Below, piece after piece: positions 6,503-8,200 of a stretch of 14,363 nucleotides of DNA. The stretch covers positions 1-14,363 of the forward strand of contig JADHLS010000040.1 in the NCBI GenBank assembly GCA_016780605.1, given 5' to 3'. Position 1 is the first letter of the stretch. Every line of letters begins with the position of its first letter. Made by a program: the position numbers and the translations under genes. The DNA is from Reyranella sp. Its GTDB lineage: Bacteria; Pseudomonadota; Alphaproteobacteria; Reyranellales; Reyranellaceae. The notes below the pieces were generated by a model that saw only the letters and a list, made by a program, of their open reading frames with translations, searched no databases and was not told where the DNA came from.

Positions 6503-8068
6503 TCAAACCAGGATCTGCCGCCAGACCGCGCGGCCGTCGGCACAGGCATTGCCGCGCCAGGCGACGTGCGTATCGGGCCGCACCAGCACCAGCTTGGCCT
6601 CGTAGATCGGCGCTACCGGATCGTCGATCATCACGATATCGAGCGGCGCCCGCGCGGCATCGATCAGGGGCGACGGATCGGCGTTGCCGAAGACGAGGAG
6701 TGTAAACCACGGACCGAGCCGATCGTAGAGGGCGCTGCCGTCGCGCAGGAAGGTGCTGGGCAATCGGGCGCCGGGCGCCGTGGTCGGCTCATACCGCAGG
6801 GGATCGGGCTCGACGCCATCGTAGCGATAGCCGAACTCGATGCCCCAGCTCTCATTCTCGGCATTGCCCAGTACGGCGATCTCGCGCGCGAGCCGCTCGG
6901 GATCGGCGATGCGCTCGTAGAGCTCGCCGATCTTGATGCGCACGCCGGTGTGGCGTTCCGAGGCGAGGCGATTGCGATAGCCGACCGGCCGGCGCTCCGC
7001 TTCGTAGGAGGCGAGCAGGCCCGCGCCGGCACCGCTCTTGAGGGTCGCGGCAAGCTTCCAGCCGAGATCGACGGCATCGCCGATGCCTGTGTTCATGCCG
7101 TAGCCGCCGGTCGGGATGTACTGATGGGCGGCGTCGCCCGCCAGGAAGACACGGCCGCTCTGGTAGCGCTCGGCCAGCAACAGGTGCGTGAACCAGGGGT
7201 TGGCGACCAGTATCTGGCGCTCGAACGGTCGCCCGACCCAGGCCTCGAGCACGGCCTCGGCGTCGAGGTTCGGCACGTCGACCGCGGGCGGCGGCCGTGT
7301 CTGCAAGGTCCAGGTGTCCTTGTCGTCCTGGGCGATCAGGGTGCCGCGCGCGGTCTGGTAGTGCCAGGCGATGCCGAAAGCCTGCAGGACATCACGCGCC
7401 TCGGAGCGGAAATGGATCATGTAGCGATGCGCCACGGCGGCCTTGCCGTCGAGCCCGATACCGAGCTTCTCGCGCACGATGCTGGAGCCGCCGTCGCAGC
7501 CCGCGAGGAAGTCGCAGCGCACTTGTTCGGTGCTGCCGGTCTCGACGGTGCGCAGCGTCGCCGTCACGCCCTCGGCATCCTGCTCGAAATCCTCGAAGGC
7601 CACGCCCCAGCGTGCGTCGACCAGCGGATCGTGGTCGATCGCGGCCTTGAGCACCGGCTCGATCATGACCTGGCTGACCCGCATCGCCGGCTCGCGCGGC
7701 TGGGTGCCGTCGTTCCTGGCTAAAATCTCGGCGCGTTTCTCCACGACACTGGGATAGCGGAAGCGGTGCAGCTCGCGCCCGCCCTTCTCCCTCGTGAGCG
7801 AGGTGATCCAGGAGACGTCGAAGTTGTTCTCCTCCGGTACGGCGACGACGCGCAGCTTGCCGGCGAGACCGAGCCGCCGGAACAGTTCCATCGAGCGGCC
7901 GTTGGTGATGTCCATCTTGGGATGCCGCGTGGTCGAGGCGTTGCGCTCGACCATCAGGCAGCGGATGCCGAACGAGGCCAGCGTGCGGGCCAACGTCATG
8001 CCGACCGGCCCGCCGCCGGCGATCAGGACGGGAATCTTGCCGGACCGCGGGCCTCCAGGCCCGCTCAT
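6503..8068 (-). CDS. FAD-dependent monooxygenase, PheA/TfdB type, with element-derived N-terminus
   Basis: A 521-residue flavoprotein monooxygenase with the phenol-hydroxylase layout: FAD fold VLIAGGGPVGMTLA (14-27) with E41, DG motif FLAGCDGGSSIVR (187-199), GD motif VFLAGDAAHQYIPTGGYGMN (307-326), and a C-terminal thioredoxin-like domain (about 430-521) ending with LVRPDTHVAWRG. It should hydroxylate an aromatic or polycyclic ring using NAD(P)H and O2. The first eleven residues, MSGPGGPRSGK, are encoded within the 34-bp terminal repeat of a 166-bp palindromic element; the conserved fold begins right after it. The GAGGAAGG before the ATG also lies in the element. In relatives the FAD strand usually starts within 5-10 residues of the start codon, so this extension is probably recent. 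The gene follows the luciferase-like gene by 133 bp. Confidence 0.9.
   Translation of the reverse strand: MSGPGGPRSGKIPVLIAGGGPVGMTLARTLASFGIRCLMVERNASTTRHPKMDITNGRSMELFRRLGLAGKLRVVAVPEENNFDVSWITSLTREKGGRELHRFRYPSVVEKRAEILARNDGTQPREPAMRVSQVMIEPVLKAAIDHDPLVDARWGVAFEDFEQDAEGVTATLRTVETGSTEQVRCDFLAGCDGGSSIVREKLGIGLDGKAAVAHRYMIHFRSEARDVLQAFGIAWHYQTARGTLIAQDDKDTWTLQTRPPPAVDVPNLDAEAVLEAWVGRPFERQILVANPWFTHLLLAERYQSGRVFLAGDAAHQYIPTGGYGMNTGIGDAVDLGWKLAATLKSGAGAGLLASYEAERRPVGYRNRLASERHTGVRIKIGELYERIADPERLAREIAVLGNAENESWGIEFGYRYDGVEPDPLRYEPTTAPGARLPSTFLRDGSALYDRLGPWFTLLVFGNADPSPLIDAARAPLDIVMIDDPVAPIYEAKLVLVRPDTHVAWRGNACADGRAVWRQILV
8035..8068 (-). repeat. Terminal inverted repeat, copy within the FAD monooxygenase start
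   Basis: On the minus strand it reads ATGA, a 7-bp stem with TGGA loop (GCGGGCC/GGCCCGC), GGTCCGG, CAAGA. Its first three bases are the start codon of the FAD monooxygenase. It is identical over 34 bp to the inverted copy at 8167-8200. Confidence 0.85.
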
Positions 8069-8130
8069 CGCCTTCCTCTTCCGAACAGCGCGTCGCGGGC
8101 CGCGGTAAACCTCGACCTACCCGCGTGCTC

Positions 8131-8164
8131 ATGAGGCGCGCGAGGACGCGCGCGGTCCGGAAGA
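8131..8164 (+). repeat. Diverged internal copy of the small hairpin unit
   Basis: It reads ATGAG, then GCGCGCG (8136-8142), loop AGGA (8143-8146), CGCGCGC (8147-8153), then GGTCCGG (8154-8160) and AAGA. The flanks match the unit at 8167-8200, which lies directly behind it in the same orientation, but the stem bases differ while pairing is kept, so structure is more conserved than sequence. Confidence 0.6.
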
Positions 8165-8166
8165 AC

Positions 8167-8200
8167 ATGAGCGGGCCTGGAGGCCCGCGGTCCGGCAAGA
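8167..8200 (+). repeat. Terminal inverted repeat, copy next to the luciferase-like stop codon
   Basis: Exact reverse complement of 8035-8068. It contains stem GCGGGCC (8171-8177), loop TGGA, stem GGCCCGC (8182-8188) and GGTCCGG (8189-8195). The final A at 8200 is one base from the TGA of the luciferase-like gene on the minus strand, so in that transcript this arm is the first thing after the stop. Confidence 0.85.

Follow-up and report, generated by a model that had tools for sequence, protein, structure and literature searches.

How does a conserved enzyme gene come to carry its start codon inside a mobile repeat, and is that start likely to be used? The question is raised by a stretch of 14,363 nucleotides from Reyranella sp. 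(contig JADHLS010000040.1 of assembly GCA_016780605.1; hereafter the window), in which a palindromic element at 8035-8200 lies between a luciferase-like (LLM) monooxygenase gene and the FAD-dependent monooxygenase gene that follows it.

We report that a non-autonomous copy of a RAYT-associated element, placed at the LLM stop codon, probably fell on the opening codons of the gene that follows and gave it a new in-frame start. The case is one with empty-site relatives, in which a REP-type element holds the start of a conserved enzyme gene. Furthermore, it ties to RAYT transposases a family of Reyranella palindromes whose foot is ATGA, and thereby makes insertion beside stop codons and the rewriting of N-termini testable.

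The features to which we refer are these:

6503-8068, reverse strand: FAD-dependent aromatic-ring monooxygenase (PF01494, PF21274), 521 amino acids including the repeat-encoded N-terminus
8035-8068, reverse strand: outer terminal unit on the FAD monooxygenase side, made up of an ATGAG foot, a GCGGGCC-TGGA-GGCCCGC hairpin, GGTCC and the tip GGCAAGA, and reading MSGPGGPRSGK in frame
8066-8068, reverse strand: ATG that lies within the terminal hairpin's foot
8069-8166, no strand: inner part of the element, with an inner unit at 8131-8164 (ATGAG foot, GCGCGCGAGGACGCGCGC, GGTCCGGAAGA) and a degenerate stretch
8071-8078, reverse strand: GAGGAAGG, a weak to moderate Shine-Dalgarno-like stretch within the element
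8167-8200, forward strand: outer terminal unit on the LLM side, repeating 8035-8068 perfectly in inverted orientation, 1 base from the LLM stop codon
8202-9440, reverse strand: upstream LLM monooxygenase (PF00296), stop codon 8202-8204

Structure of the element and the N-terminus that it encodes

The first-pass annotation of this DNA had described perfect 34-bp terminal inverted repeats with further pairing between them and a repeat boundary on the monooxygenase ATG, and this description is borne out in full. The arms 8035-8068 and 8167-8200 are identical at 34/34 nucleotides and can be extended to 45 nt at 91% identity. They are the only perfect inverted repeats of at least 16 nt with arms no more than 200 bp apart in the whole window; in 20 first-order Markov sequences of equal length such repeats averaged 0.0. 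Each arm folds as a hairpin of its own, the inner unit forms one more between them, and the inner end of the arm 8035-8068 is the A of the ATG, at 8068.

The FAD-binding strand of the monooxygenase directly follows the element tip that faces this gene. Between the upstream in-frame stop and the FAD-binding motif the ATG in the arm is the sole ATG, GTG or TTG; an ATT lies 9 bases before the motif. Of the eleven codons previously attributed to the element, ten (MSGPGGPRSG) are coded by the repeat, and the eleventh, AAG, is ambiguous, in that it fits both the repeat tip GGCAAGA and the native MKKIPV found in R. soli and in the homologues P0008 and P0044. The MSGPGGPRSG N-terminus, which comes from this one assembly, occurs in none of the 120 homologues listed (of 1246), so that, within this list, the same residues were not met on unrelated DNA. 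The best protein match among the relatives searched is that of R. soli (G012), at 92%.

Two further groups were seen among the 120 listed homologues. In four (P0002, P0004, P0068 and P0115) the protein begins MLRSAQHD, followed by two residues and VLIAGGG, with no other Met before the motif, and here it looks as if a different repeat may supply the start of the same gene. Another five (P0016, P0017, P0094, P0103 and P0109) are annotated from an internal MTL and so lack the FAD-binding loop; they, too, may have lost the upstream start, or the gene call may be wrong.

A dispersed repeat family linked to RAYT transposases

The element had been called MITE/REP-like, with uniqueness in the host genome named as counter-evidence; it is in fact multicopy. 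The family was matched at no fewer than 40 places in its own genome, the window included (40 of 154 candidate places scored; our own count from 125 alignments), and it occurs in 29 of 61 genomes, namely its own, 27 of the 36 of the same genus and G041, the last with one weak match. It is thus of high copy number, and it is dispersed, intergenic and situated beside gene ends. Throughout the 40 loci the unit is laid out as an ATGAG foot, a hairpin and GGTCC, followed by GGCAAGA in outer units, the common tip in this genome, or mostly by GGAAGA in inner ones; 36 outer units have the form of 8035-8068. The pattern ATGA-N18-GGTCC has 33 distinct matches. In 14 of them 6-7 of the 7 pairs form, and at least five different stems are represented, the hairpin being kept through paired changes; the other 19 are without such pairing and look off-register or due to chance. 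A unique palindrome or a known regulatory RNA was considered and rejected, given the copy number and the absence of an Rfam match at the gathering score. A non-exhaustive search of the open-licence literature returned no published account of this family, and Reyranella does not appear in the main text of PMC12306157 or PMC6006769.

Y1 transposase matches were present in 22 of the 41 genomes searched. Of 34 matches listed, 30 had loci, and at 25 of these an inverted repeat of at least 24 nt lies within 900 bp of the centre of the RAYT domain (0 or 16 nt at the other five). The 126 control positions gave none with 24 nt or more, ten with 18 nt or more and a maximum of 20 nt; these controls were positioned on the centres of other gene loci, in some cases one locus counted twice, and are unmatched for intergenic setting. 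By reading, the arms at the 25 loci are of the GGACC/GGTCC type at 15, of a second type (GCGCGCCACT or a close variant) at nine and of a third type at one (contig C461 of the own genome). On contig 443 of G007 a RAYT open reading frame lies between inverted arms identical to those of the window, and on contig 275 of R. soli the inner-unit form occurs as a perfect 33-nt pair at a RAYT. All five RAYT frames tested pass the NCBIfam RAYT model NF047646, and one matches PDB entry 4er8, which is named TnpArep. In the window's own assembly (60.7% complete) no RAYT with the window's arms was found, its two Y1 hits having other arm types, and at the junctions inspected by eye, without a systematic test, no target-site duplication was seen.

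The identical arms around the RAYT of G007, together with the inverted repeats at 25/30 RAYT loci vs 0/126 controls, lead us to regard 8035-8200 as most likely a non-autonomous RAYT (REPtron/TIRtron) element. Assignment to either REP superfamily was rejected. The hairpin foot is ATGA(G) and not the GTAG of the first. The second, CGTC, is defined in excerpts of PMC3733652 by a CGTC tag, A/T first stem pairs and no linked transposase; the present units have the ATGA(G) foot, G/C stems and a GGTCC tail, and are RAYT-linked.

Element tips and stop codons

We recognised 58 outer ends at the 40 own-genome loci, of which 49 face a stop codon, eight face a start and one runs to a contig end. Counted from GGCAAG, 43 of the 49 stop-facing ends lie within 10 bp of the stop, and the remaining six are at -36, 13, 18, 20, 52 and 397. 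The ends were found with a motif for GGTCCGGC-type tips and a loop filter, so that own-genome copies with other tips are missed, and gene ends were taken from a codon-usage gene finder trained on seven genes of the window. The gene ends beside RAYT elements number 49; stops account for 38, and 20 of those stops lie within 15 bp.

Insertion by replacement of a terminator was considered here, with mixed results: at the locus L005 two convergent stops lie -4 to 23 bp apart, almost without spacer, in 18 of 29 relatives, and at L067 several relatives have, by eye, a terminator-like hairpin. Convergent gene pairs free of repeats, which served as a control, have a median gap of 7.5 bp (n=8, too few for a test), and very short gaps may just be a common feature of the genome. 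The gap at L005 and at the related loci L177-L180 holds three different repeat types, one in the window's genome, one in G033 and G014 and one in R. soli.

A general habit of donating starts is unsupported, since 8 of the 58 outer ends face a start, the window's included. At L009, L056, L057, L065 and L070 an ATG or GTG in the gene's frame stands 9-15 bp outside the tip, and at L064 and L074 the distance to the start of the called gene is 142 and 84 bp. The gene finder alone does not settle the start-facing ends, because it also puts the start of the window gene downstream of the element. The GTG of L009 is common to three of six relatives; for L065, with 12 of 20 loci viewed, four of 11 relatives have the ATG at the identical codon, and in most of the rest it lies at most a few codons away. 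In two orthologues of L065 (L273 of R. soli and L275 of G004) a repeat-derived in-frame ATG stands just upstream of the native one (MNSMSSDD and MNSMFSDD), possibly a repeat-encoded extension.

History of the junction

The orthologue set comprised 34 loci and the window (n=35). In the 13 that are free of any insert, the LLM stop lies 1-2 bp before the native start (12) or overlaps it (L099), so that an insertion at the stop hits the next start. Two others have a spacer of 22-23 nt, nine have another upstream gene and 11 have a repeat, which is of the window's family in three, a related single hairpin in one, a second RAYT-linked type in five (at two of which, L077 and L082, the LLM gene was not seen on the contig) and a third repeat in two. 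The native start is kept directly after the repeat in nine of the 11, the exceptions being the window and L080, and loss of the start at repeat-bearing junctions is exceptional in this set. The earlier proposal that the insertion had removed the old start therefore stands insofar as the native start is absent in comparison with orthologues; it would have been lost at the insertion or later.

In the sequence of events that we favour, a RAYT acting in trans would have placed the element immediately downstream of the LLM stop codon, and the far tip, in the absence of a spacer, would have come down on the first codons of the next gene; the start would have been hit because the tips of RAYT-associated elements lie at stop codons. 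The native ATG would have been lost then or afterwards. The terminal hairpin foot, ATGA(G), reads outwards in a frame in which stops are usually absent as far as the tip, and at the FAD monooxygenase this frame would have matched by chance; since it matched, the reading frame would have remained open, now with a new start and ten residues from the repeat.

In R. soli the same family stands at the same junction with the native MKKIPV right after the tip, which raises a second, less probable history, in which the insertion is ancestral and shared with R. soli and a small deletion later took ATG-AAG from the window's lineage. In a gene tree from a quick search, in which the window's place within its clade is unsettled, the three rows of the window's family cannot be explained with fewer than three label changes, and the partner of R. 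soli (support 92) is L076, which bears another repeat; replacement between repeats is conceivable. The synonymous distances, too, speak against the shared insertion, with a dS of 0.435 between the window and R. soli and 0.248 between R. soli and L076.

Some further observations concern these loci. L080 (contig C300 of G007) has a shorter dimer of the window's family at the same junction, with the LLM stop 82 bases before the motif, and its only in-frame start is apparently a TTG at the tip. In L076, L078 and L100 the repeats ahead of the FAD gene are nested, an outer GCGCGCCACT-type pair enclosing an inner pair of hairpin units. The MAG titles at L083, L098, L122 and L127 (Asaia bogorensis, Rhizobium, Bordetella parapertussis and Klebsiella pneumoniae) seem wrong for their content, and L083 and L098 fall among Reyranella-type orthologues in the gene tree.

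Likely use of the start and constraint on the gene

The insertion had also been credited with donating a ribosome site. The stretch GAGGAAGG does lie inside the element and scores -5.9 kcal/mol against an assumed 16S tail, tied sixth among the 36 own-genome outer units (median -3.5). The native starts of 14 repeat-free orthologues score -1.4 to -5.3, and four repeat-bearing orthologues with the native start retained range from -1.5 to -9.3, the best value being that of R. soli; falling within the range of other copies and orthologues, the site is unexceptional in strength. A 216-nt RNA spanning the junction has a folding energy of -151 kcal/mol (z -8.2), and its AUG is paired, so that efficient translation is not assured; the short start region folded alone is not unusual (z -0.7 and -0.4). 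In our reading the FAD monooxygenase would still be translated from the element ATG, though probably at a low level, because the AUG sits in a very stable fold.

The body of the gene has a dN/dS of 0.10-0.13 between the window and five close relatives and 0.06-0.11 among those five; against the more distant G007 the value is 0.24 for the window and 0.21-0.23 for the relatives. These ratios suggest a constrained, perhaps slightly relaxed, gene, and as pairwise values they are compatible with a function lost recently on the branch leading to the window. It is accordingly worth weighing whether the repeat silenced the gene, leaving a recently decapitated pseudogene whose in-frame ATG is coincidental and unused. 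The paired AUG would agree with this, a frame match would have about a one-in-three chance, and spacing longer by 162 bases would be expected to break translational coupling; moreover, of 124 unit matches, a figure that counts redundant and chance matches too, 117 have an ATG-foot frame free of stops for 33 nt, and an open frame is thus no evidence that the ATG is used. Against it are the intact 521-codon frame and the low dN/dS against the five close relatives, and we hold silencing to be unlikely.

A broader reading, to which we give little credence, sees in each terminal unit a latent outward start module, by virtue of the ATGA foot and the mostly stop-free path to the tip, and in the start of the window gene a hotspot that several RAYT families have reshaped; were it true, insertion beside stops in gapless operons would repeatedly rewrite N-termini. 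An assembly or consensus error, with a true sequence that keeps the native ATG-AAG as in R. soli (GGTCCGC-ATGAAGAAGATC), is very unlikely: the repeat is multicopy in a 515-contig draft, the tip GGCAAGA overlaps the native AAGAT, where a small indel could hide, and R. soli retains its ATG, but the tip is the genome's common form, one contig spans the repeat and both genes, and G007 has a comparable ATG-less junction.

Relation to known systems

The preferred reading, insertion of a RAYT-associated element at the LLM stop, can be set beside several known systems. As excerpts of PMC3733652 and PMC6006769 describe them, REPtrons and TIRtrons have a RAYT (TIRYT) gene with REPs, or with terminal inverted repeats that are in part self-complementary, on either side, and copies occur dispersed as well; in the former paper, REPs of other species lie mostly no more than 20 bp from the 3' ends of flanking ORFs. 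The Reyranella elements resemble these in having a RAYT gene between inverted hairpin units and dispersed, high-copy dimers, and differ, as far as those excerpts go, in a foot that is neither GTAG nor CGTC, in varying stems and in arms of ~33 nt with a GGTCC tail.

The first-pass annotation had drawn a parallel with the palindromic elements of Rickettsia, which proves loose. Rickettsia RPE elements and REPs at ORF N-termini are palindromic repeats read as part of a host protein, and R. conorii proteins with an N-terminal RPE-1 are said to be expressed (excerpts of PMC3733652); unlike these, as described there, the Reyranella repeat contains the start codon itself, judging by the empty-site orthologues. 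Closer is MITEAba12 of Acinetobacter, an outward-reading terminal repeat of which gives neighbouring genes their first residues, MQQS (excerpts of PMC6382973). The likeness is that a repeat end supplies the first residues of a neighbouring gene; by that partial account MITEAba12 is an IS-derived MITE with target duplications and outward promoters, whereas the Reyranella element is a RAYT-linked hairpin. The donation of a start by a small mobile repeat is thus already in print (MITEAba12, PMC6382973), as are, in the excerpts of PMC3733652, REPs at ORF N-termini and inverted repeats, some of them self-complementary, around RAYT genes. REPs within 15 nt of a stop codon stall ribosomes (Liang 2015, as cited in an excerpt of PMC12306157), and the window's hairpin likewise stands close after the upstream stop codon, a likeness in position.
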